Below are positions 12,764 through 28,955 of a stretch of DNA of 64,000 bases, piece after piece. Where the stretch lies: NCBI GenBank assembly GCA_016845585.1, contig JAERSO010000129.1:1-64000 (forward strand), in the 5' to 3' direction. Each line of letters starts with the position of its first letter. The stretch's first letter is position 1. The notes beneath the pieces were generated by a model. That model was not told the origin of the DNA and did not search any database. It saw only the letters and a program-made list of their open reading frames with translations. Source of the stretch: Acidimicrobiaceae bacterium. GTDB lineage: Bacteria; Actinomycetota; Acidimicrobiia; Acidimicrobiales; Aldehydirespiratoraceae. The translations under genes and the position numbers were made by a program.

Positions 12764-13939
12764 ATGTCCGATCACCTCCGAGAACGGCGCGTCCTCTCGT
12801 TGGCGATCGTCATGTCCTCGGCCGCGGTCGCCCAGGCATTCGGCCGATTCACGTGGGGTGTGGTCCTGCCCGATGCCCGTGACGATGTCCTGGACGGATC
12901 GAACACGCTGGCAGGACTCTTCGGATCGATCAACGTCGGGGCGTATCTCCTCGGCACGATCCTGGTGGCCTGGCTGTCGTCGCGACTCACCCTGGTCTGG
13001 TTGGTGCGAGTGGGTCTGATGCTGTCCACCACGGGACTTGCGTTGGCCTCGTTCGCGCCGGCTCCCTGGGTGCTCGGGGTGTCGCTGTTCATCATGGGCC
13101 TTGGTGGCGCCGTGATCTGGGTACCGGCGCCGGGCATCGCCGTTCGGTACTTCCCGGCGTCACGCCGGGGTCTGGCCTCGGGCATCGTCGGAGCCGGCAT
13201 CGGGGTCGGCATCGTGTTCGCCGGTCGCCTCGGGGGCTGGGTCGACGACGGCTCCGACGGCGCCTGGCAACGGGTCTATCGGATCGAGCTGGCACTCGCG
13301 ATCATCGTCTTGTTCCTCGTGTTCACCGTCCTCAAGTCCCGCGGCGAGCGGCCGGCGGTGGCGGGTGGCTTCGGAGGTTTCGGTGCGCTTCGAACGGTCG
13401 CCGCATGGAAGCCGATGACCTTGGCCTACACCGCCTACGGATTCAGCTACATCCTGATCATCTCGTTCCTGGTCGCTCGCCTCGAGGACGACAGCGGCTA
13501 CAGCGAGGAGCGAGCGGCCTTCGTCTTCTCGGTGGTCGGTCTGGCGATCATCGTGGGTGGCCTCACCGTGGTGCCGATGTCGGATCGGATCGGTCGCCGT
13601 CTCACCCTCGTGATCGCGTTTGCCTCGTGGGCCGTCGCCTCGGTCCTGATCCTGACCGGAGTCACCGTTCTGGTCTTCGTCGCCGCCGGACTGATCGGCC
13701 TGATGTTCAGCGGCATTCCGGGGACCATCGTGGCGCACATCATGTCCCACACCGACGAGTCGACCTATGGACCAGCCTTCAGTGCGATGACCCTGGCGTT
13801 CGGCTTGGCCCAGGCCATCTCGCCCCAGATCGGTGGAGCGATCGCGGACTGGCGGGGCTCGTTCACGGCGGTCTTCGTTCTGGCTGCAGTCGTGGCCGGA
13901 TTGGGCGCGGTGGCGTCAGCGAAGATCTCCGCCCGCTGA
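12764..13939 (+). CDS. Major facilitator transporter (YbfB/YjiJ-like, 12 TM)
   Basis: 391 residues, about twelve hydrophobic helices with the short central loop typical of MFS. The N-terminus FGRFTWGVVLPDARDDV resembles the YbfB/YjiJ family. The cytoplasmic loop SDRIGRRLTL lies between helices 8 and 9, in place of the stricter A-type motif. It follows the two PLP enzymes by 7 nt and is probably the permease of that operon. Cargo unknown. The 3' end overlaps the convergent helicase-nuclease gene by 24 nt. Confidence 0.85.
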   Translation: MSDHLRERRVLSLAIVMSSAAVAQAFGRFTWGVVLPDARDDVLDGSNTLAGLFGSINVGAYLLGTILVAWLSSRLTLVWLVRVGLMLSTTGLALASFAPAPWVLGVSLFIMGLGGAVIWVPAPGIAVRYFPASRRGLASGIVGAGIGVGIVFAGRLGGWVDDGSDGAWQRVYRIELALAIIVLFLVFTVLKSRGERPAVAGGFGGFGALRTVAAWKPMTLAYTAYGFSYILIISFLVARLEDDSGYSEERAAFVFSVVGLAIIVGGLTVVPMSDRIGRRLTLVIAFASWAVASVLILTGVTVLVFVAAGLIGLMFSGIPGTIVAHIMSHTDESTYGPAFSAMTLAFGLAQAISPQIGGAIADWRGSFTAVFVLAAVVAGLGAVASAKISAR

Positions 13940-16900
13940 GAGCTCGGCCAGGTCGGCGGCTCGTCTCACGACCTCGTCCATCGCGGCCGGAAGGTCGGGG
14001 AGGTCGACCTCGGTCGCTCCATCTTCCCGCAGGAAGACGAATGTCATCCGCGAGATCTTCTCGCCCGTGGCGGCGGCGAGCGCGGCGGCGTAGGACGCAC
14101 CCTGCAATCGGTAGCGCGCGACTTTGGCGTCGAGTTCGTCGGGGGAGCCGACCTGATCGGTCTTCCAATCCACGACGACGAGTCCGTCCGGGGTGCGGTA
14201 GAGCAGGTCGATGTAGCCCTCGACCAGACGATCGCCGACGGGTGCGGCAACCCAGAGCTCGCGCCAGTGCTGGCCACCGGCCGCGGTGCGTGCCGCTTCG
14301 GTCATCAACCCGGCCTGCGCCAAACGGGCAACGACCTTCTCCTGCTTGGTGACTCCCTCGGCCGCGCTCTGGGCGGCGGCCGCGTCGGCGAGACCCTCGC
14401 CCGTGGCGAGGTCGATCACCTGCATCACGCCATGCACAGCGCGGCCGACCGCAGTGCCGTAGCGACCCTTCTGCCACGGTGGGAGATCGAGGTCCCGGGT
14501 GCGCTTGTCGAGACCCGGATCAGCGGCGGCGGACGCCTCGGCGGCGAGCGTCGTGGCGGCCACGACCGTGCGAGTCGAGGCCGCGGTGACCACCCGTTGG
14601 CGTTCGGCGGCCCATTCATCCCGGTCAGGGACCGGGACACGGGACGGCACGACCACTTTCCCGGACGCCGCGGGTGTCGGATCGTGCGCCGCGGCCGCTG
14701 CTCGCGCCATGGCGGGCTCGGCGAGCACTGAGGCACTGGTACGGACCTTACGATCCTCGCGGTGCAGGGAGACCACGAGGTGATCTCGGGCTCGGGTGGC
14801 GGCGACATAGAGCAGGCGAAGGCGCTCGTGTTCGTCCATCTGATCGTCGATCGGCTGCCAGGCGTCGTATCCCTCCGACGCGATACGGCTCGAGACCTTG
14901 AGCAGGACGTCGCCGCCCGGGGGAAAGACCACGGTCGGACCTCTCGAGGGCTGCTGGAAGCGGGTGGTCATGCCCGACAGCACCGTGATGGGGAACTCGA
15001 GGCCCTTGGCACCGTGAATCGTCATGATGCGGACCGAGTCGTCGTCGGTTTCGGGCAACACGGTCTCCGACACGCGGGCATTGTCCGCCCCTTGGAGGCG
15101 AGCCCATTCGAGGTAGGCCCGCAAGTCGGTGCCGCCGGCATCGACCCATGCTCGCGCCTGGTCGAGGACGAAGCGGAGGCGGCGCCACACGTCTCGGGGG
15201 GCTCCGGTGGCGATGGCGGTCTCGAGCACCGCCCGCTCGCGGATCACGCGATCGAGCAGCTCCGCCGGGGTCGACCACAGCCGCTGCTCGTGAAGGTGGG
15301 CGAGATGGCGGAGGCCGTCGGCGACCGGATGGTCATCTGCTTCTTCGGGCAGATCGGCGCGCAGCGAGAACGTGCCGCGCAGGCCGAGCCGCCAGTGGAC
15401 GAGGTCGTCGTCGCCGCACCCGTAGACGAAGCTGCGCAGGGCAGCAACCGTGGCCAACTCGTCGGTCGGGTCGGCCACCGCCCGCAGGGCGAGCATCAGC
15501 TCCCGTACTTCGCGTGAGGCATAGACGAGGGACGAGGTCTCGGCCCGGTGGGGAATGGCGACGAGGTCGAGAGCTCGCTCCAGTGCCGGGAGGCTCGTGC
15601 GGGCGGGGAGCAGGATGCACACGTCGCTCGGGCGCGCCGGGCGCCATCCACCCTCACCATCCTCGACTGACCAGGGTGTGTCGCCTCGCACCGCCTCGGC
15701 CACGGCGAGGGCCACCGAACGTGCTTCGACTGCCCGTAGGGCCTCGGCGTCGAGGCGCTCGGGGATCGGATCGGCGCCGAGGAGAGCGACCGACGGGCCG
15801 CTCGGCGCGGCGTCGGCGCGATGTGCGGACAACGCGACATACGCCGGCTGACTCCCATCCGCCGCAGTGATCAGGGATGAGAAGATGTCGTTGATGAAGT
15901 CGATGATCGGTGCGGTCGTGCGGAAGTTGACGGTCAGGTCGGCACGATCGTCCACCCGATCGCGGGCGTCCAGGTACACGCCGATGTCGGCCCGCCGAAA
16001 GCGGTAGATCGACTGTTTCGGGTCGCCGACGAGGAACAACCGTCCCGGCTCGACCTCGATCTCGTTCCACGGCCGCCCGGCAAGCGACGGACTATTCTCA
16101 GCCGCTGCGATCAGCACGGCCAGCTCGATCTGAATGGGGTCGGTGTCCTGGAACTCGTCGAGCAGGAGTCGGCGGTATCGAGCACGCAGCGAGGCGCGGA
16201 CGACCTCTCCATGGTCGGTGCTGCGCAGGAGACGGCGGGCCCGCACGAGAAGATCGTGGAACTCGAGACGCCCGGAGGCCCGGCGTTCCTCGGCGGCATC
16301 GAGGACGAATCGACCGATCCGGGCGCCGATGTGATGAAGGGCCGCGGTGGTGACCTGCGTGGTGGCCTGGTCGCATTCTGCGCCGAGTCCCCGTATCGAT
16401 CGCCGCACGTCGCCGACATCGATCGTCCAGTTGGCGGCTTTGCCCTTGTTGCCCGGCTTCAGCGTTCGAGTCGCCTTGGGGCCCTCGCCCATGTCGGCCA
16501 CGATGGCCAACGCGTCGATCTCGTCGAAGGCATCGAGAAGGGCGGCCTTGTTGTCTTCGAGGCGGTGGAAGAAGGGGAGGAGGGCATCGTCAGCGAAACA
16601 TCGCTCCCGGAGCGCGAGCACTTGGTCGAACCGGGCGACGAGTCCGTCCACGTCGAACGGCGGGGGTTCGGGCGGCGTCAGATCCAGGCGTTCCTCGATG
16701 AGGTCCCAGTTCGCGGCCATCTGCAGGGCCACGGCTCGCAGGGCGTCGAGTCGTACCCCTCCCGCTTCGAGAATCAGCAATGAACGCCCGACGGTGACGT
16801 CGTCGAGGAATTCGTCCAGAAACGCCCGCCACCGCAGCTCGAATTCGACCTGGGATCCGATCTCGTCGAGCACTTCCACGCCCGGAGGCAGGCCGGCTTC

Positions 16901-17254
16901 CACCGGGTGCTCGCCGAGGATCCGCTGAGCGAAGGCATGGAGGGTTCCGACGGCGGCTCCGTCGAGTTGCTGGACCGCGTCGCGAGCGGCGGAGGCGAAG
17001 AGGTCGCCGACGGCGATGCGGTCCTCGAAGCGTTGACGGATTCGGTCGCGCAACTCCGCGGCCGCCTTCTCGGTGAACGTGATCGCGGCGATCGACTCCA
17101 TCGCCACGCCGTCGTCGAGGACGAGTGCCTCGATCCGGTCGACGAGGGCCCGGGTCTTTCCGGAGCCGGCGCCCGCTTCGACGAACAGGGTGAGGTCGCG
17201 CCGTTCCCGGACCAGGCGCCGCTGGTCTTCATCGACCGGAAGCACCTCAGCCAT
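13916..17254 (-). CDS. UvrD-type helicase-nuclease, AddA/AdnB-like subunit
   Basis: 1112 residues. Helicase motifs: AGAGSGKTRALVDR (Walker A, 27-34), LLLDEFQDTDPIQ, VGDPKQSIYRFRRAD, TIHGAKGLEFPITVLSG and LYVAATRARDHL. The C-terminal RecB-type nuclease shows Asp1016, Asp1029 and Lys1031 (VVVDWKTD) and the distal YRLQ motif, so both activities look intact. With its partner it should process double-strand breaks for RecA loading. The start ATG at 17254 overlaps the stop of the upstream subunit by 8 nt; the open frame continues upstream only as a shadow of that gene. Confidence 0.87.
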   Translation of the reverse strand: MAEVLPVDEDQRRLVRERRDLTLFVEAGAGSGKTRALVDRIEALVLDDGVAMESIAAITFTEKAAAELRDRIRQRFEDRIAVGDLFASAARDAVQQLDGAAVGTLHAFAQRILGEHPVEAGLPPGVEVLDEIGSQVEFELRWRAFLDEFLDDVTVGRSLLILEAGGVRLDALRAVALQMAANWDLIEERLDLTPPEPPPFDVDGLVARFDQVLALRERCFADDALLPFFHRLEDNKAALLDAFDEIDALAIVADMGEGPKATRTLKPGNKGKAANWTIDVGDVRRSIRGLGAECDQATTQVTTAALHHIGARIGRFVLDAAEERRASGRLEFHDLLVRARRLLRSTDHGEVVRASLRARYRRLLLDEFQDTDPIQIELAVLIAAAENSPSLAGRPWNEIEVEPGRLFLVGDPKQSIYRFRRADIGVYLDARDRVDDRADLTVNFRTTAPIIDFINDIFSSLITAADGSQPAYVALSAHRADAAPSGPSVALLGADPIPERLDAEALRAVEARSVALAVAEAVRGDTPWSVEDGEGGWRPARPSDVCILLPARTSLPALERALDLVAIPHRAETSSLVYASREVRELMLALRAVADPTDELATVAALRSFVYGCGDDDLVHWRLGLRGTFSLRADLPEEADDHPVADGLRHLAHLHEQRLWSTPAELLDRVIRERAVLETAIATGAPRDVWRRLRFVLDQARAWVDAGGTDLRAYLEWARLQGADNARVSETVLPETDDDSVRIMTIHGAKGLEFPITVLSGMTTRFQQPSRGPTVVFPPGGDVLLKVSSRIASEGYDAWQPIDDQMDEHERLRLLYVAATRARDHLVVSLHREDRKVRTSASVLAEPAMARAAAAAHDPTPAASGKVVVPSRVPVPDRDEWAAERQRVVTAASTRTVVAATTLAAEASAAADPGLDKRTRDLDLPPWQKGRYGTAVGRAVHGVMQVIDLATGEGLADAAAAQSAAEGVTKQEKVVARLAQAGLMTEAARTAAGGQHWRELWVAAPVGDRLVEGYIDLLYRTPDGLVVVDWKTDQVGSPDELDAKVARYRLQGASYAAALAAATGEKISRMTFVFLREDGATEVDLPDLPAAMDEVVRRAADLAELSAGGDLR

Positions 17255-20200
17255 GATCGCCCCCGTTGACTGCGAGATAGGGGGCCAGGTCGGGGTCGTC
17301 GGCGATGCGGCGCCAGTCCCGGTGCTGGTGCGACAGGCCGAGGCCGTCGGGCTCGCAGAACCAGCAGTCGACCCACGGACGGAAACTCGGTGTGGCGGGA
17401 TGTTGGGGGAAGAGGCCTGCGCCGATCCCGTCGCTGATCTGCGCGACCACATCGAGGGCGGTGTCGGTGACGACGTCGGTGATCGGGTAGCCGACGGTGG
17501 AGAATCGACCCCGTGAGGTGACGAACCAGTAGGCGCCGCGGGCGGGATTGTCGACCCCGAGCACTCGCCGCGCCGCGAGTGCGTACAACACCAGTTGCAG
17601 GTGGGCACCGCCCGGGACGGGGTCTTCGGCCGTGAGCTTGTCGTAGCCGCGTGTGGAGCCGGTCTTGTAGTCGATGACGGTGATGGTGCCGTCGTGGGCT
17701 TCGTCGATGCGGTCGATGGCGCCGCGGAGCCGCAGGGTGCGACCGTCGGGGATCGGCACCTCGGTCGGTGGCGTGGGCGAGCCGGGCATGCCGAAGGGGA
17801 GCTCGGTGGCGGTCGGTCGCGTGCCATGGGCGGCGCGCTGGATGTCGTCGAACGCGACGAACCCGGCGAGGTCCTGCAGGATCACCTGTCGATCCCGTTG
17901 CCAGTAGATGCGTCGACCGACCATGCCCCGGGCGGCGAGCCGGTCGGCCTCGGCCACACCGAGTTGAAGGAGCCGATCGAGTTGTGGCTCACTCCAACCG
18001 ATGCCCGGCTCGGGCACCGCGTTGGTGGCGATCTGCTCGTCGAGCCATTGGTCGAGCACGTTGTGGATGAGCGAGCCCCGGATCAGGGGAGTGATCCGAT
18101 ACGACTCCTCCGGGTCCTCGACGGGGTCGACTCGCAGGACGTGGCGGACGAGATAGGCGTGGGGGCACGCCGCCCAGCTCTCGAGCCGAGTCGCCGAGGT
18201 GATCTGCTCGGGGTTGGTCGGCGACGGAAGAACGACGCCGCGAAGATCGCCGTCACCGGCGAGGTTGCCGTCGAAACGGGTGAAGCGGCGCGAGAGGCGC
18301 CCGGCCGTCAGGGCCACACCGCGGGCCACTTCCCGTCGAGCCTGAACCAGCGGGTGGTGGTCGATCGCGCCACCGTCCTCGGCGTGGTCGAGGAGGGCAC
18401 GGACGTCGTACTCCTGGGCATGGGCAGGGAAGTCGGTGGCCCGGAGCCCGGCGATGAACGACGGGACCTCGCTGAGCCAGTCGCCGGTGCGCTGATTCAT
18501 CTCCTCGGCGGACGGGCGACAGTGATCGCGTTGTTCCACGGTGTCGAGCAGCCATCGCGACGGTGCTCGCTCGGCGCTGCGGCGGAGGTCGCCCCGCGGG
18601 AACATGAAGGTGGTGTGCGAGGCCGCGTTCATCACGGCCAGCAGCGCCCGGTGTTGATTGTCGGCGGCTGCCGCCAGGAGTGGGAGATCTCGTCCGGCGG
18701 CCCCGCGGACGCGATCGGGGATGAGGGGATCGTCGCGTCGTCGGGCGGGCATGGATCCTTCGGCCAGGCCGAGCACGACTGCGGTGTCGAGCTCGAGGCC
18801 GAGCGCCTGGTCGACGGGCCCGACCAGGACGCCGTGGCCGAACGTGCCGTGGCGCCCGAGGTCGTCGCCGAGCTGGAGTTCGAGCGCGCGACGAAAGGCG
18901 CTGGTGGATGGCGACGGGTCGATGCCGTCGAGATCGCCCAACCGGTCGATCGCGGCGTCGATGCGTTGACCGGCCGCACGTTCCTCCGCCGGCCAGCTCT
19001 CGCGTAGCGACTCGCCACCCAGATAGGTGCGCACGAGTGAGCGACACCAGCTCGCCAGCCCCGACCAGGTGGCGCCGCGCCCGCCGGGGTTCAGCGCATC
19101 GACGAGGGTGAGCATGAACGTGCGGAGATCGGCGGCGGTGGCTGCCTCGCGACGCAGGCGGGCGGCCCGCCAGGCCTCTTCCTCATTTCGTTCGTGGCGC
19201 TCGGCGTCGGACTCCAGATCGATGCGCAGCTGGTCCAGCCGTTCATCCCATTGCGTCGGCCCGGCGACGATACCGGCGGCGCGGGATGCTCGTTCCCATG
19301 CGGCGACCGGGGCGGGTCGGTTGTCGACCCCACGGATGGGCGCACCGGCGAGCCATGCCGCCACGTCGTGACGGGAGAAATCGTGATCGGCCAGCCCGAG
19401 CAGGGCCAGGAGTGAGCGACCCAACAGAGATGTGTCAGCCGTGCGCACAGATGCCCCGAACCAGGGGATCTCGGCGGCGTCGAGGGCATCGCCGGCGAGC
19501 CGCGCATAGGGCTTTCGCGAACCGAACACGATCGCCGTGCGGTCGAACGGCGTTCCCGCCCGGGCCGCCTCGGTGATGAGACGCACCGCATGACGCACCT
19601 CGTCGTCGGCGTCGGACACGCTGATGGCACGGTCGGCGATCGGCACCGTGGGCGCCGTGTCGACTCGCCAGGTGAGCCCCAGTGCTTCGGTCAGCTCCCG
19701 CACGGCAGCGTCCGCCTCGACGACACCCGTGACGCCGGCGATCACCTCGACAGGCTGGGATGCGGCCAGCGCCTGGATGAGCCGGACCTGATTGCTCGTC
19801 AACCGCTGGGGGAGATGGATCAGGGTCGGGCCCAGCTCGCGGGCAACCGGCGACCCCGCCTCGAGTTGCTCGATCGCCGCGGCGATGAGGTCCTGTTCGT
19901 CGGAGAACCGCGGTGCGAGACGAGCGTGAACCTGCTCATGGATCCGAACGATGTCGGCGAGACGAGGCGAGGTGGCACGCAGACGCGCCCGACCTCCAGC
20001 GTCCACCTCGGACAGGGCCCGATGGGAGCGAACGAGGGACCGCTCAGTGGTCGGATGTGTGTGGACGCCGGCGAAATGGCCGGGATCCTCGGCCAGTACG
20101 GCCCGCACCGCACCTGCGAGAACGGGAGTGGAAACGGGCCGTCGCCCCGATGCCGCCACCCGTCCCGCGCCGAGCAGCTCGGCCAGTCGGTACGGCGTGA

Positions 20201-20387
20201 GGAAGGTGACGCCGGCGACCCCGCCCCGACGACCGAGCGCCCGCCGGGCCGCCACGCCGATCTGGTTGGAGTGCACGACAACGGTGACCGGCGCCAACGC
20301 GTCGTCGGTCTTGTGCGCGGCGATTCGCTCAGCGAGGGCCTCGTGGGCCGCCGGGCCGTAGGGGGTCGTGGTGAGGGAGATCGCCAT
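17247..20387 (-). CDS. AddB/AdnA-like subunit: inactive helicase fold with PD-(D/E)XK nuclease
   Basis: 1046 residues. The N-terminal position where a Walker A should sit reads VVVHSNQIGVAARRAL, so ATP binding is probably lost. The C-terminal nuclease keeps LRGAIDRIDE, then TVIDYKTGS, then LQLVLYA. Cysteines flank it: one in ESWAACPHAYLVRH, two in CWFCEPDG (1008 and 1011). AddB-type iron-sulfur proteins normally have a fourth Cys six residues on; here that position is Gly, so the cluster may use another ligand or be absent. It is first in a two-gene operon and probably acts as the Chi-scanning or structural subunit. Confidence 0.8.
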   Translation of the reverse strand: MAISLTTTPYGPAAHEALAERIAAHKTDDALAPVTVVVHSNQIGVAARRALGRRGGVAGVTFLTPYRLAELLGAGRVAASGRRPVSTPVLAGAVRAVLAEDPGHFAGVHTHPTTERSLVRSHRALSEVDAGGRARLRATSPRLADIVRIHEQVHARLAPRFSDEQDLIAAAIEQLEAGSPVARELGPTLIHLPQRLTSNQVRLIQALAASQPVEVIAGVTGVVEADAAVRELTEALGLTWRVDTAPTVPIADRAISVSDADDEVRHAVRLITEAARAGTPFDRTAIVFGSRKPYARLAGDALDAAEIPWFGASVRTADTSLLGRSLLALLGLADHDFSRHDVAAWLAGAPIRGVDNRPAPVAAWERASRAAGIVAGPTQWDERLDQLRIDLESDAERHERNEEEAWRAARLRREAATAADLRTFMLTLVDALNPGGRGATWSGLASWCRSLVRTYLGGESLRESWPAEERAAGQRIDAAIDRLGDLDGIDPSPSTSAFRRALELQLGDDLGRHGTFGHGVLVGPVDQALGLELDTAVVLGLAEGSMPARRRDDPLIPDRVRGAAGRDLPLLAAAADNQHRALLAVMNAASHTTFMFPRGDLRRSAERAPSRWLLDTVEQRDHCRPSAEEMNQRTGDWLSEVPSFIAGLRATDFPAHAQEYDVRALLDHAEDGGAIDHHPLVQARREVARGVALTAGRLSRRFTRFDGNLAGDGDLRGVVLPSPTNPEQITSATRLESWAACPHAYLVRHVLRVDPVEDPEESYRITPLIRGSLIHNVLDQWLDEQIATNAVPEPGIGWSEPQLDRLLQLGVAEADRLAARGMVGRRIYWQRDRQVILQDLAGFVAFDDIQRAAHGTRPTATELPFGMPGSPTPPTEVPIPDGRTLRLRGAIDRIDEAHDGTITVIDYKTGSTRGYDKLTAEDPVPGGAHLQLVLYALAARRVLGVDNPARGAYWFVTSRGRFSTVGYPITDVVTDTALDVVAQISDGIGAGLFPQHPATPSFRPWVDCWFCEPDGLGLSHQHRDWRRIADDPDLAPYLAVNGGDHG

Positions 20388-20430: not shown

Positions 20431-22119
20431 CTAGGTGAGCGCGGCGCGATCCACGATCTCGCGAAGCGTGTCCGCATCCTGATCGAGCGTGCCGTACTCG
20501 TTGCCCCACTCGCCGCCGAGACGTGAGGCGCAGAAGGTGTCGGCGACGGCGGGGGTCGACTGGCGCAGGAGCAGGCTGCCCTGAGTGGCCTTGGCGATCA
20601 TCGTCATGAGGCGACGTGCGTGTGGTTCGAAGTCGCCCCGGGCCCGAAGCAGCTCCCGTTCCAGGTCCGTGACATAGGTGTCGAGGTGCCGGTTGGCGCC
20701 GGCGGCGAGCTTGATCTCGTCCAGCAGGGCGTCGCCGGTTTCAGGGGTGCGGAGCAGGGAGCGCTCCACGTCGAGACCCATGATCACCGAGGTGCCCTCC
20801 CACACGCTGTTGAGGGGGGCTTCCCGGTAGAGCAGCGGGATGGGCTGATCCTCGATGTAGCCCATGCCGCCGTGGCATTCCAGGGCTTCGAGCGTGACCG
20901 AGCTGGCCCGACGACAATTCCAGTACTTGGCGATCGGCACGAGGATCCGGTTGAGCAACTCGGCGGACTCCATCGATGCGGAGTCGTCGGCGGCCCTGGT
21001 CACGCGCGTGCCCAGCAGCAGCGCGGCTTCGCTCTCGATGGCGAGGTCGGCGAGGGTGTTCTGCATCATCGGCTGGTCGCGCACCGTCGCGCCGAAGGCT
21101 TTGCGATGGGTGGTGTGGTGGATGGCGGATGTGACGGCTCGCCGCATGATCCCCGCCGACCCCGTAGCAAGGGCCATGCGGATGTAGTGCGTCATGTGCT
21201 TGACGAACGAGGCGATGCCCCGGCCCTCCTCGCCGATCCGGTAGCCGACGGCGACCTCGAACTCCACCTCGGAGGTGGCATTCGACGTGTTGCCGAGCTT
21301 GTCCTTCAGGCGCTGGATCCGGATGTTGTTGCGCGTGCCGTCGTCGAGGATCCGTGGAGCGATGAAGAGGGTGACACCGGCGTCGGTCTGGGCGGTGAGG
21401 AGAAGGATGTCGCCCATGGGGGCGGAGACGAAGTACTTGTGGCCGGTGATGAGGTATTCCCGGCCGTTGCCCGTGGGCACGGCTCGGGTGGTGTTGGCCC
21501 GGACATCGGAGCCGCCCTGCTTCTCGGTCATGGCCATCGCCACCGAGATGGCTGCCTTGTCGTCGACGTGCGCCGGGCGCGGGTCGTACCCCGGCGCCAC
21601 GATCTTGTCGAGCCAGCGGTTGCCGATCTCGGGGTCGCTGCGCAGGAGGGGGACGATCGCCCACGTCATGCAGTTGGGGCAGCCGACCGCACCGTTCTCC
21701 GCCTGGTTCCAGAGGTAGTAGAGGACGTTGCGGGCGGTCTGGCCGCCGGGCTCGTCGACCGTCCACGGCAACGAGTGCGTCTCGGTCTCGAACGTGGCGG
21801 CCATGACCTCGTGGTAGGCGGGGTGGAAGTCGACCTGATCGATCCGGTTGCCGACGCCGTCATGGGTGCGCAGCGTCGGCCTCTCGTGGTTCGCCACACG
21901 CGCCAGCTCGCGCATGCGCGCGCTGCCGACGATCTCGCCGACGTTCACGGCGCGATCGTGGACCCACTCGATCTCCTCTCGCCTGACGAGATCGACCAGC
22001 ACGGGATCTTCGAGGTACAGGTTCTGGTCCGGCGGCGCCGGCGGCACGTTCTCCACCGTGTGGGTCGTGCCGGCCGCCTGCCGGGGGCCGCTGGGGACCC
22101 AGAGTTGATCCCGGCTCAT
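20431..22119 (-). CDS. AidB-like acyl-CoA dehydrogenase
   Basis: 562 residues, the length of AidB rather than of classical acyl-CoA dehydrogenases (about 380). FAD-binding segments match AidB closely: MTEKQGGSDVRANTTRA, LKDKLGNTSNATSEVEFE, LECHGGMGYIEDQPIPLLYRE and NSVWEGTSVIMGLDVER. AidB has weak isovaleryl-CoA dehydrogenase activity and a DNA-protection role in E. coli. Here the gene is last in a TetR-led operon with a diiron-like protein and an epoxide-isomerase-like protein, so a catabolic oxidation is more likely. The start ATG at 22119 overlaps the previous stop (ATGA). The longer open frame upstream is a shadow. Confidence 0.88.
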   Translation of the reverse strand: MSRDQLWVPSGPRQAAGTTHTVENVPPAPPDQNLYLEDPVLVDLVRREEIEWVHDRAVNVGEIVGSARMRELARVANHERPTLRTHDGVGNRIDQVDFHPAYHEVMAATFETETHSLPWTVDEPGGQTARNVLYYLWNQAENGAVGCPNCMTWAIVPLLRSDPEIGNRWLDKIVAPGYDPRPAHVDDKAAISVAMAMTEKQGGSDVRANTTRAVPTGNGREYLITGHKYFVSAPMGDILLLTAQTDAGVTLFIAPRILDDGTRNNIRIQRLKDKLGNTSNATSEVEFEVAVGYRIGEEGRGIASFVKHMTHYIRMALATGSAGIMRRAVTSAIHHTTHRKAFGATVRDQPMMQNTLADLAIESEAALLLGTRVTRAADDSASMESAELLNRILVPIAKYWNCRRASSVTLEALECHGGMGYIEDQPIPLLYREAPLNSVWEGTSVIMGLDVERSLLRTPETGDALLDEIKLAAGANRHLDTYVTDLERELLRARGDFEPHARRLMTMIAKATQGSLLLRQSTPAVADTFCASRLGGEWGNEYGTLDQDADTLREIVDRAALT

Positions 22120-22649
22120 GCCGGTGCCTTGGCCAGCCCGATCGCCTGCTTCAGGCAGAGGCCGGTGGTGATGACGGCGCCGACGACGGCGGCGTAGAAC
22201 GTGAAGTACGAGATCAGGTTCTGCCAGTCGCCGACCGGCTGCAGGCCCCGCTCGGGGGCGTAGACGGCGAAGGAGTAGCCGATCGTGTTGCCCCACAGAG
22301 TGACGATCGCTGCGTAGAAGAACCACTTGGCCTGGCGCATGCTGAAGTTGAGCCGCTTGCTGAGCAGCACCATCACCATCACATAGGTCGAGTTCATGAT
22401 CGGCCCGGTGTGGGCGTTGCGTAGGAGTTCCTTCTGCTCGGGCGTGTCGGGCACCTCGATGTCGAGGCTCGGGATCGGGAACAAGTGCAGCACGTTGTCG
22501 GCGAGGGCGATCAACCAGACGAAGCCGCCGATGAACCCGAGGAACATCACGACGAAGCAGTGAACGAGGAGCTTCCCGCCGATGCGAGACGAGAAGCCTT
22601 CGCCTTCGACGACCCAGGGCTCCTCGGAGGTGGTCGAGGTGGTGGTCAT
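22116..22649 (-). CDS. Styrene oxide isomerase (StyC)-like integral membrane protein
   Basis: 177 residues, four predicted transmembrane helices (about 28-50, 86-99, 108-127, 146-166). The family link comes from NAHTGPIMN and LWGNTIGYSFAVYAPERGL, which mirror the ARAHSGPALN and WANVGFYLF..SPNRGL stretches of StyC as I recall it. Residues reported for the StyC heme and active site (His58, Asn64, Asn99, Tyr103) fall on His80, Asn86, Asn121 and Tyr125, a constant offset of 22. StyC performs a Meinwald rearrangement of an epoxide to an aldehyde using ferric heme b. The substrate here is unknown; no styrene monooxygenase genes are present. It is ATGA-coupled to both neighbours. Confidence 0.75.
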   Translation of the reverse strand: MTTTSTTSEEPWVVEGEGFSSRIGGKLLVHCFVVMFLGFIGGFVWLIALADNVLHLFPIPSLDIEVPDTPEQKELLRNAHTGPIMNSTYVMVMVLLSKRLNFSMRQAKWFFYAAIVTLWGNTIGYSFAVYAPERGLQPVGDWQNLISYFTFYAAVVGAVITTGLCLKQAIGLAKAPA

Positions 22650-23545
22650 GCGGCGCTCCCGGGGTGGTCTGTGTCGAAGGGGACGGGGATGTCGGGGTGA
22701 TCGGTGTCGAGCCGGGGGACGAAGTCGGGGTCGGCCGTGGCGTAGCCGGCGATCCAGTCGCGAACCCACTCGGGGTCGTCCTCGCGGCGCGGATCATGGC
22801 CGGGCAGCGCCGTGCGCAAGGCGCCGGGGACAACGGCCACGAAGAACGCCCCGGTGCGCATCCAGAGCCGGATCCGTGAGCGCGGGTTGCGCCAGCGGCC
22901 GTCGTGCTTGAGCATCGCGATGCAGCCCTTGCGCGCCCACCAGAACACGTGGGCCGATCCGGTCAGGACTCCCAGCGCCCGCTGCCAGTAGGGCCCCCCG
23001 GCAGCCTGATAGGCATCGAAGGCCACCCGCTTGTGCTCGACCTCCTCCACCATGTGCCACAGTGCGAACGAAGCGACCCGGGTGTCGGATCCACCGAAGA
23101 GCTTGCGGCGGTCGTTGACCAGCCAGGCGGTGACGCCCATGGTCATGCTCTCGAATCCGGCGCTGTAGGCGAGCCGGTACGTGAGCGAGCGACGATCTCG
23201 CATGCGCTGATAGCCGGCCTTCAGCGCGTCTTCGACGTCGGCAAGCATCGGGTAGCCGTTGGCCTTGAGGATCTCGTTGTAGCGGCGGTGGGTGCGGAAG
23301 TGCTGCCCCTCCTGGGAACAGAATCCGGCGATCTCCTCGAGTACGTCGGGGTCCTCGATCTCGCCCGCGGCTTCCCGCAGGGTGGCGATCAGGAACGGTT
23401 CCAGGTACGGCATCGTCAGCGACGCCCCGTTGATCATGTGAGACCACTCGTGATGGCCCGGGTTCCACACCGGCTCGATGTCGTCGGGGAACTCGAACGG
23501 GATCTTGCGAACCTCGATCGGCGTGTGCTGCTCGGTGACGGTCAT
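22646..23545 (-). CDS. PF10118-type ferritin-like diiron protein (annotated metal-dependent hydrolase)
   Basis: 299 residues. A four-helix-bundle pattern of carboxylate ligands is visible: Glu49, Glu79xxHis82 (in CSQEGQHFRTH), Glu132 (GFESMTMG) and Glu168xxHis171 (MVEEVEHKR). This is the E...ExxH...E...ExxH arrangement of diiron oxygenases and ferritin-like proteins. The family name says hydrolase but its chemistry is not established. In this operon, immediately before an epoxide-isomerase-like membrane protein, an oxygenase that makes an epoxide is an attractive guess, not a fact. The start at 23545 overlaps the tetR stop (ATGA). Confidence 0.8.
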   Translation of the reverse strand: MTVTEQHTPIEVRKIPFEFPDDIEPVWNPGHHEWSHMINGASLTMPYLEPFLIATLREAAGEIEDPDVLEEIAGFCSQEGQHFRTHRRYNEILKANGYPMLADVEDALKAGYQRMRDRRSLTYRLAYSAGFESMTMGVTAWLVNDRRKLFGGSDTRVASFALWHMVEEVEHKRVAFDAYQAAGGPYWQRALGVLTGSAHVFWWARKGCIAMLKHDGRWRNPRSRIRLWMRTGAFFVAVVPGALRTALPGHDPRREDDPEWVRDWIAGYATADPDFVPRLDTDHPDIPVPFDTDHPGSAA

Positions 23546-24174
23546 GTTGCTACCTCCTTGGCCAGGTTCTGCTTGCTCAACCCCAGGATCAGGGTGGAGA
23601 CGAAGACGGGGAGCAGGTCGTCGATTGAACGACCCACGACGAAGAAGCCGCCGAGATGAAGTTCGACGAGCCCGTGGGCCCCGGCCCAGAACGTGTGGGC
23701 GGCGGTGAGCGGGTCGACGGCGAGTTCGATCGTGCCGGCCTTCTCGGCTGCGTCGATCACGTCGCGGCAGACACCCAGGGCGGCGAGCTTCGCGGTGAGC
23801 AGCGTCGGATCCGACTCCTCGATGCTCCCGGCGTCGGTGTAGAGCAGGTCGTACATCCGGGGCCGGTCGAGCCCGGCCCGCACGTAGGCCTCCGAGAGGG
23901 CCTGCAACGCGGCGATCGGCTCGTCATGCAGCGCCGCGGCGGTCGAGAGGACTCCGAGCAGCCATTCGTAGGACCGGACCCGCAACGCGTCGATGATGTC
24001 GGCCTTCGAACCGAAGTACGAGTACGGCTTCGTGTGGCTGCACCCGGCCCGGTTGGCGATGGCCCGAAACGACATCGCCTCGATGCCGTCCTCTTCAAGC
24101 AGGGCCTGGGCCGTGTCGAGCAGCGACTCGCGAGTGGAGCTGATCTCTTCGGCTGAACTCGGGCGGCGCGGCAT
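23542..24174 (-). CDS. TetR-family repressor of the diiron/isomerase/AidB operon
   Basis: 210 residues. The N-terminal helix-turn-helix is clear (LLDTAQALLEEDGIEAMSFR, then AIANRAGCSHTKPYSYF, then SKADIIDALR). The C-terminal domain is all-helical, with WAGAHGLVELHLGG typical of the TetR_C fold that binds a hydrophobic ligand. It is the first gene of the operon it probably controls; the other three genes follow with 4-nt overlaps. The ATG at 24174 begins 6 nt after a -10 box inside a long palindrome, so autorepression is very likely. The inducer is presumably the pathway substrate or its CoA thioester. Confidence 0.9.
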   Translation of the reverse strand: MPRRPSSAEEISSTRESLLDTAQALLEEDGIEAMSFRAIANRAGCSHTKPYSYFGSKADIIDALRVRSYEWLLGVLSTAAALHDEPIAALQALSEAYVRAGLDRPRMYDLLYTDAGSIEESDPTLLTAKLAALGVCRDVIDAAEKAGTIELAVDPLTAAHTFWAGAHGLVELHLGGFFVVGRSIDDLLPVFVSTLILGLSKQNLAKEVAT

Positions 24175-24210
24175 CCAGTGAGTTAACAGCGTTAATTTAA
24201 CGGTGTCAAC
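24175..24210 (-). promoter_or_regulatory. Leaderless promoter covered by a TetR operator
   Basis: Reading the minus strand: TTGACA, a 17-nt spacer, TTAACT, 6 nt, then the tetR ATG. A 29-bp imperfect palindrome (24182-24210) spans exactly from -35 to -10; its core at 24190-24202 is CGTTAATTTAACG, symmetric around one base. A bound repressor would block the polymerase completely. Confidence 0.8.
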
Positions 24211-26957: not shown

Positions 26958-28955
26958 GTGGAGCACTTTCGTGTCGAGGAACTCTCGGAGGCCGCAGGAG
27001 TCGCGGTCGACACCATCCGCTACTACCAGCGACAGCAGTTGCTGGCCGCGCCGCGGCGTGAGGGTCGACGAGCAATCTATGACACGTCGCATCTCGACCG
27101 ACTGAGTGAGATCCGGCGTCTCGCCGACGAGGGTTTCAGCCTCACCCAGATCCGCAGCCTGTCAACCGATGATGCGTCCGGGTTGCTGGCTGACCTCGCC
27201 GAACAGAACGCCGCCGACCCTGAATTGGACAAGGCCGAATTGGCGCGTCGGGCCGACGTCCCGGAGTTCATCGTCGATGTGGTCGTCAGCGCCGGGCTGA
27301 TCGCGCCTTCCGGCGAGGTCGGTGACGAACGATTCCCGGCCGACGCCGTCGACATGCTCGCGGCCGCCAAGACGCTCGTGAACGCCGGCGTCTCGATGGA
27401 GGAGCTCACCGCGCTGGCCCTTCGCCACGCCACCCACATCGAGGACGTCGTCGACGACGCCATTGGGGTGTTCAAGCGCCAGAGCGATCGAAGCGGTGGC
27501 GATCGCGATGAGTTGATCGAGCTCATGCACCGGCTCGTGCCCGTGGCGTCGTCCCTGGTCGGCCAGCACTTCGAGCGCACCTTGCGCACCCGGGCCCTCG
27601 CCCGACTCGGCGACGAGACGCCGGAGGACGACGGCGGTATCGTCGTGTTCTCCCGACGGTTGACCGAGCGCATCGATCCGGTTGCGGTGTTCATGACCGC
27701 CACCGACGGACACCGCGCGTTGTGGATTCGGCCCGAACTCGGGTCTGCCATCGTCGGCATCGGCGCCGTGGACACGATCGAGCCCTACGGCGACACGCGG
27801 TTCTCCGCCGCGTCGGCGGCTCGTGCCGCGCTGGCGGCCAGGGTCCGGCGTCATGGCCCCGCCGATGCCCCGGCCCCGGTCCTGCTCGGCGGCTTCTCGT
27901 TCGCCACCGGTTCGACCACCCACACGCCCGACTGGGCCGGCTTCCCCGACGCCCGATGGGTGCTGCCGGAGTTGACATTCGTCGACCGCGCCGACGGTTC
28001 GTGGTTGATCGCCTCCGCTCGGCTCGCCCCCGGCGACGACGAGTCCGCGGTGCTCGAGTCGCTCGAGGCTCGCGTCGACGCGCTCGCATCCGCCACCGTA
28101 CCCGCCGTGCTCGACCCGTCCGATGTGGCCCGCGGCGAACCCACCGCCGACGATCAGGACTATGTCGATCTCGTGGCCGCGGCGGTCCGTGACATCCGCG
28201 CGAGCGACATGGGCAAGGTGGTGTGTGCCCGCGTGCAGGAACGCGGGCCGATCGACATCGGGGTCACGCTCCAGCGACTCGTACCCCGGTACCCGACCTG
28301 CGCGGTGTTCGCGTTCGGGGTCGGCGAACGCACCTTCCTCGGCGCCAGTCCCGAACAACTGGTGCTGCTGGATGGTCGGGAAGTCCAGACCGTCGCTCTC
28401 GCCGGCACCACCGCCCGCGGATGGGATGAGACCACCGATGAAGCGCTTGCTGCCGAGATGATGGGCTCGGCGAAAGTCCGTGAGGAGCACCAGTTCGTCG
28501 TCGACGACATCACCGAGCGTCTCGCCACGCTCGGCCTGGTGGGGCGCACACCCGAGGAACCGGAAGTGCTGCGGCTCGCACGGGTGCAGCATCTGCGCAC
28601 CCCGATCACCGCTCGCGTGGAACGTCGCCGCGGTGGGGTGAGCGACATGGACGTGCTGCGGGTGGCGAGCGTGTTGCACCCGACGCCGGCGGTCGCCGGC
28701 ACACCCACTCAGGATGCCCTCGACTGGCTCCGCGACACGGAGGAACTCGACAGGGGCTGGTACGCGGCGCCCGTCGGTTGGTGTGACCTCGACGGCAACG
28801 GTGAGCTGCGGGTGGCGCTTCGCTCGGCGCTCGTCGATCCCGACCGGGTGCAGCTCATCGCCGGGGCCGGCATCGTCGCCGACTCGGTGCCCGAGGATGA
28901 GTTGGCCGAAACTGCGGTGAAGCTCCGGGCATTGCTCGACGTGATGGAGGTGTGA
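26958..28955 (+). CDS. menF: MerR regulator-isochorismate synthase fusion (MenF-type)
   Basis: 665 residues in one uninterrupted frame. Residues 4-75 are a MerR winged helix (VEELSEAAGVAVDTIRYYQR, then DEGFSLTQIRSL). Residues about 90-170 look like a second, degenerate MerR-like helical module. From about 220 a complete chorismate-binding enzyme follows: Lys420 in DMGKVVCAR, LAGT at 481-484, Glu510 in REEHQFVVDDI, HPTPAVAGTP at 574-583, and GAGIVADSVPEDELAET near the end. The enzyme isomerises chorismate to isochorismate, the first menaquinone step. menD follows after 1 nt. A MerR-type dyad in its own promoter suggests self-regulation. Ordinary MenF is about 430-450 residues with no DNA-binding head. 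Confidence 0.87.
   Translation: MEHFRVEELSEAAGVAVDTIRYYQRQQLLAAPRREGRRAIYDTSHLDRLSEIRRLADEGFSLTQIRSLSTDDASGLLADLAEQNAADPELDKAELARRADVPEFIVDVVVSAGLIAPSGEVGDERFPADAVDMLAAAKTLVNAGVSMEELTALALRHATHIEDVVDDAIGVFKRQSDRSGGDRDELIELMHRLVPVASSLVGQHFERTLRTRALARLGDETPEDDGGIVVFSRRLTERIDPVAVFMTATDGHRALWIRPELGSAIVGIGAVDTIEPYGDTRFSAASAARAALAARVRRHGPADAPAPVLLGGFSFATGSTTHTPDWAGFPDARWVLPELTFVDRADGSWLIASARLAPGDDESAVLESLEARVDALASATVPAVLDPSDVARGEPTADDQDYVDLVAAAVRDIRASDMGKVVCARVQERGPIDIGVTLQRLVPRYPTCAVFAFGVGERTFLGASPEQLVLLDGREVQTVALAGTTARGWDETTDEALAAEMMGSAKVREEHQFVVDDITERLATLGLVGRTPEEPEVLRLARVQHLRTPITARVERRRGGVSDMDVLRVASVLHPTPAVAGTPTQDALDWLRDTEELDRGWYAAPVGWCDLDGNGELRVALRSALVDPDRVQLIAGAGIVADSVPEDELAETAVKLRALLDVMEV

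Follow-up and report, generated by a model that had tools for sequence, protein, structure and literature searches.

Amongst the closest described counterparts of the locus considered here is the styABCD styrene operon, which encodes the flavin epoxidase StyAB and the styrene oxide isomerase (SOI) StyC. The heme of StyC is held by H58, whilst its open sixth site is used for the substrate; the N99A and Y103A mutants are inactive, with N64A and D95A being impaired (PMC11374702). In the SOI enzyme of Rhodococcus, the heme ligand is H57 (PMC12502698). A second point of reference is provided by DnfA, AurF and CmlI, the diiron ligands of which follow the order E, ExxH, E, HxxxExxH (PMC9478400), and by the CylC-type halogenases, which display QExxH and HxxDExxH motifs (PMC12101540). 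Such 3-His/4-carboxylate sites are familiar mainly from N-oxygenases, not from epoxidases (PMC12101540). For PF10118, a family that carries the name of a hydrolase, no functional study was found in the literature searched, where it is named just once, in passing, as a 'protease' in a correlation.

The window (the whole 64,000 nt stretch of DNA analysed) belongs to a genome of 4.67 Mb in 176 contigs. On its minus strand it harbours four genes that overlap at three ATGA junctions, as claimed in the original prediction and confirmed by reading the junctions directly and by matching each family with profiles. The features of this operon are:

24225-24175, minus strand: operon leader, 51 bp, with TTGACA (24209-24204), the palindrome CGTTAAATTAACG (24202-24190) and the operator-like box TTAACGCTGTTA (24195-24184)
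24174-23542, minus strand: TetR-family regulator, 210 aa (PF00440, TetR_N, and PF13305, TetR_C_33), homologues of which adjoin PF10118 in two other loci, L002 and L003
23545-22646, minus strand: PF10118 protein, 299 aa, a putative ferritin-like diiron enzyme (Pfam 192.5 bits, cut-off 33.2)
22649-22116, minus strand: SOI-family membrane hemoprotein homologue, 177 aa (NCBIfam StyC NF045734, E = 1.4e-13)
22119-20431, minus strand: AidB-like flavoprotein of acyl-CoA dehydrogenase fold, 562 aa (PF18158, AidB_N, 160.8 bits, cut-off 22.9; PF00441, PF02770)

The single promoter that had been proposed for these genes is only partly upheld. The leader does contain TTGACA and a palindrome (an arm of equal length arises in 4.7 % of shuffles), but a sigma-70 scan of the leader returns no complete promoter match, and a DUF3097 gene on the same strand ends just 51 bp upstream, so that transcriptional read-through into the operon is possible. 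GC and GC3 of the operon resemble those of its surroundings, with no sign of recent foreign origin. Directly downstream of the operon lies an AddA/AddB-like helicase-nuclease pair (13916-20387, minus strand), with the AddB-like protein scoring far under the AddB cut-offs. Elsewhere in the window, on the plus strand, a 665 aa frame (26958-28955) combines an N-terminal MerR-type DNA-binding domain (residues 4-68) with an isochorismate-synthase-like domain that binds chorismate (residues 399-655), an unusual fusion of regulator and enzyme.

When compared across genomes, the conserved core of this arrangement is the pair of PF10118 and SOI homologue, and not the set of four genes. A genome-collection scan with the window SOI-like protein as query identifies relatives of 64-65 % identity in two alphaproteobacterial MAGs, of Hellea (L002) and Hyphomonas (L003). 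The former displays the order TetR-PF10118-SOI, and in the latter TetR-PF10118 is divergent from SOI; a genome of the same genus as that of the window (L013) harbours PF10118-SOI without TetR and without AidB. Convincing relatives are absent from 396 sampled genomes of the phylum and 397 of the order, the window's own genome excepted, and the module is thus patchy. The matches retrieved from the phylum (L004, situated within an unrelated membrane-protein gene) and from the order (L017) are both weak and partial, and were rejected.

To place the pairing on a numerical footing, all SOI-like genes (n=43) were located in 25 genomes that possess them, as were the PF10118 genes (n=55) of these and two sister genomes. 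PF10118 is found within 1.5 kb of 23 of the 43 SOI-like genes (19 of the 25 genomes), where 0.13 would be expected under random placement, although this share is biased upwards because the genomes were selected by a profile made from three PF10118-linked SOI sequences. The excess over random placement is, however, far too large for this choice of genomes to account for it. Most commonly, PF10118 sits directly upstream of the SOI-like gene on the same strand. On a 41-row tree of SOI-like proteins the distribution of the PF10118 label requires 6 changes, of which 5 are forced, as opposed to 14 with shuffled labels, indicating an ancient link with subsequent losses or one that has arisen several times. 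Pairwise distances in one family correlate with those in the other (r = 0.68), a value that none of 5000 permutations reaches. The case for a functional link between PF10118 and the SOI family is strong, and the recurrence of the pair in bacteria of two phyla suggests an undescribed two-enzyme oxidation unit. No literature on the pair was found in a search that mostly did not cover subscription journals and preprints, such that an earlier description is possible; SOI was never coupled with the hydrolase name of PF10118 and appears together with 'diiron' only in one general review. The order of the pair varies between loci (L058 and L076 as compared with L047, L048 and L050), with PF10118 being upstream, downstream or divergent, and in L068 (5975-7021) two tandem SOI-like genes follow one PF10118 gene.

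With regard to the original prediction of a conserved neighbourhood of PF10118, StyC-like protein and AidB, the first two members do recur well beyond this strain, whereas AidB drops out of the set. Amongst the loci compared, the AidB-like gene adjoins the pair only in the window genome; L056 and L073, with weakly matching acyl-CoA dehydrogenases, are the only fetched loci with a counterpart at E <= 1e-10, and no match at E <= 1e-50 exists in three genomes of the same genus or in the two alphaproteobacterial carriers. The window protein reaches 435 bits against the AidB equivalog NF008594, below the cut-off of 545. As AidB is not conserved with the pair, the acyl-CoA oxidation step once assigned to it is without comparative support. 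Epoxides act as alkylating agents, and AidB of E. coli is associated with the response to alkylation; a protective role is therefore as likely as the acyl-CoA step. The confinement of AidB to one operon, along with the missing TetR of L013, might also be taken to mean that the four genes came together by chance and have no joint function, but this is extremely unlikely for the operon as a whole, given how greatly the pairing exceeds random placement and how it reappears over the tree, with distances that correlate; for AidB alone, chance is still a possible reading.

For the PF10118 protein itself, comparison by sequence leads no further than its own family. All 20 paired members match the PF10118 profile, which is their sole Pfam match at E <= 0.01, with no AurF/CmlI-type or CylC-type family being returned; a PDB sequence search yields nothing credible, and thus no solved relative, and no PF10118 relatives were found in viral contigs. 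Alignment of the 20 paired members, in contrast to what the name of the family implies, reveals E49, Q78-E79xxH82, E132 and H164xxE167-E168xxH171 to be invariant in every one. This signature, E…QExxH…E…HxxEExxH, corresponds to the 3-His/4-carboxylate arrangement of diiron enzymes of the AurF/CmlI type, and the predicted diiron ligands of the window protein are E49, E79, H82, E132, H164, E168 and H171. In an AlphaFold model built on three sequences (pLDDT 68.7, 80-90 in the core), these residues are located on four successive helices (45-60, 66-95, 121-144 and 155-181). The best fold matches are to RNR R2, R2-like oxidases and CmlI, with Z scores of up to 12.6, although helical bundles reach ~13 by common arrangement; for CmlI, 227 residues align with an rmsd of 4.4 at Z 11.0, which is likewise in the range open to helical bundles generally. 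Judged from motif and model, PF10118 has the appearance of an O2-activating diiron protein and not of a hydrolase, in agreement with its initial description as diiron oxygenase-like. A metal-dependent hydrolase, e.g. one that opens epoxides or esters in competition with, or following, the SOI-like protein, takes its cue from the Pfam name only and is very improbable beside an invariant E/ExxH/E/HxxxExxH set on four helices, fold matches to diiron proteins and top fold matches that include no hydrolase families. The name is probably wrong, being without support in these data.

The same ligand pattern, together with the second-shell Q and E positions, also fits the AurF and CylC motifs, and PF10118 might accordingly be an AurF/CylC-like N-oxygenase or a C-H oxidase/halogenase, with the SOI-like protein acting on a non-epoxide product or removing a toxic by-product. 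Such an activity is, however, distinctly unlikely given the conserved pairing with the SOI family, the sole known chemistry of which is epoxide rearrangement. PF10118 is widespread, occurring in 2 to 9 copies in many of the genomes examined. A second gene in the window genome (L091:3962-4930, at ~199.5-200.4 kb of the same contig and outside the window; 170.2 bits) encodes QExxH and HxxEExEH motifs, has no SOI neighbour and lies next to a luciferase-like oxidoreductase frame in divergent orientation.

The likeness of the third protein to StyC is one of true homology, as originally proposed: phmmer matches it to PDB 30tw at E 4.2e-9, a profile search reaches E 1.7e-48 for 8pnu and 1e-44 or better for the StyC structures, and the StyC model matches all 30 SOI-like members scanned. 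Its score against the StyC equivalog NF045734 is just 51.1 bits for a cut-off of 150, and it is thus a homologue of StyC and not StyC. Four helices are predicted by a low-confidence AlphaFold model (three sequences), the quality of which was insufficient for fold comparison. Residue mapping equates window H80 with the StyC heme ligand H58, and N86/N121/Y125 with N64/N99/Y103, with D95 replaced by T; in this alignment D95 is confined to the StyC references. No StyA, StyB or StyD genes lie beside the SOI-like gene in the window, unlike in the two reference StyC loci, both of which harbour StyA together with genes for a flavin reductase and for an aldehyde dehydrogenase, with no PF10118 annotated. 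Oxygenase-type neighbours are also seen for some SOI relatives that are not accompanied by PF10118, namely a flavin reductase (L055), a luciferase-like monooxygenase (L064) and a 2Fe-2S ferredoxin (L060). Those SOI homologues that fall closest to StyC in the tree (L055:5391-8002 and L057:4561-7203) adjoin a gene resembling that of 3-hydroxyacyl-CoA dehydrogenase and a frame that is PaaZ-like, with the flavin reductase of L055 also adjoining.

The heme-ligand histidine is invariant in all aligned SOI-like sequences, yet the catalytic residues are not uniformly retained. N64, N99 and Y103 are all present in the window clade, as they are in L047, L048, L050 and L058, whilst 13 of 21 PF10118-linked SOI homologues are without N99, Y103 or both, the other linked lineages displaying F99/Y103, F99/A103, I99/S103 or F99/T103. 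StyC itself makes up only a minority of the SOI-family proteins identified, and the pair may not follow StyC chemistry in every lineage; in lineages without N99/Y103, a redox or substrate-handling role for the heme, or another substrate class, is to be considered. Extended to the whole family, this would make the SOI-like protein a membrane redox partner or anchor of PF10118, supplying electrons to the diiron site or a membrane-dissolved substrate, and StyC a specialised branch of a wider family. That N99A and Y103A inactivate StyC lends some weight to this proposal, as does the fact that no reductase is consistently linked to the pair; nor, amongst the neighbouring genes, is an aldehyde dehydrogenase or a common substrate gene, with SDR, GST, alpha/beta hydrolase and ABC genes recurring inconsistently. 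Retention of all three residues in the window clade and the four loci above, and the use of the sixth heme site of StyC for its substrate, nevertheless render a partner or anchor unlikely, if still worthy of attention.

The TetR regulators encoded in the window, in L002 and in L003 are homologues of one another, and in all three cases the gene is preceded by the box TTWACRCTGTW. Within the window this box occurs once, and across ~0.7 Mb of fetched loci its sole further occurrences are those that precede the TetR genes in L002 and L003, a rarity that is only indicative, since the motif was picked by eye after comparing the three leaders. It is plausible that the box is a candidate operator travelling with the module. 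Transfer of the module between phyla appears likely. The regulators of PF10118-SOI pairs differ amongst loci, with TetR of two kinds and a PadR-like frame in L054.

The mechanism favoured for the window operon is that of a TetR-controlled module with a core of two cooperating proteins. PF10118, as a ferritin-like diiron enzyme, would activate O2 and oxidise a small lipophilic substrate, most likely converting a C=C bond to an epoxide, and the SOI-like heme protein would then rearrange this epoxide to a carbonyl. In doing so, PF10118 would occupy the position that StyAB has amongst the styrene genes. TetR probably keeps the operon repressed as long as neither substrate nor product is present, and the AidB-like flavoprotein may be an addition specific to this lineage, which could serve a later oxidation or guard against alkylating intermediates. 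For the window operon, the chances of this complete scheme being correct, argued as it is by analogy, appear evenly balanced. The broader proposition, that PF10118 proteins are misnamed diiron alkene epoxidases that achieve net alkene-to-carbonyl conversion with SOI heme proteins, as a unit that passes from phylum to phylum along with a TetR and an operator of its own, is put forward tentatively, as a possibility that falls short of even chances. Irrespective of this, a conserved link to an enzyme family of known chemistry provides the first testable role for PF10118, a large enzyme family, and is itself an argument against the hydrolase name. If the epoxidase reading is true, the pair would constitute a compact two-gene route from alkene to carbonyl, of interest for biocatalysis.

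Comparison with known systems reveals shared as well as differing features. AidB-type acyl-CoA dehydrogenases have AidB_N and acyl-CoA dehydrogenase domains in common with the window protein, which differs in missing the NF008594 cut-off and in an operon context seen nowhere else. The N-oxygenases AurF, CmlI and DnfA and the dimetal halogenases CylC and NocO resemble PF10118 in the order and type of spacing of their seven ligands, including the QExxH and HxxEExxH motifs, but are unlike it in sequence (with no Pfam or PDB match) and in gene context. The styABCD operon (StyC; PDB 8pnu/8pnv, 30tw) has in common with the window a homologous membrane hemoprotein, its heme ligand, N64/N99/Y103 and an adjoining oxygenase-type gene; it differs in that the window locus has PF10118 in place of StyA/StyB/StyD and is missing D95, and in that the window protein forms a separate clade on a long branch, far under the equivalog cut-off. 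In the phenylacetyl-CoA epoxidase route (PaaABCDE), a ferritin-like diiron epoxidase is followed by epoxide isomerisation, as proposed for the window pair. Although this route is multi-subunit, acts on a CoA-bound substrate and employs an unrelated isomerase, and no Paa genes lie beside the window pair, it demonstrates that the logic of epoxidation and subsequent isomerisation exists in nature.
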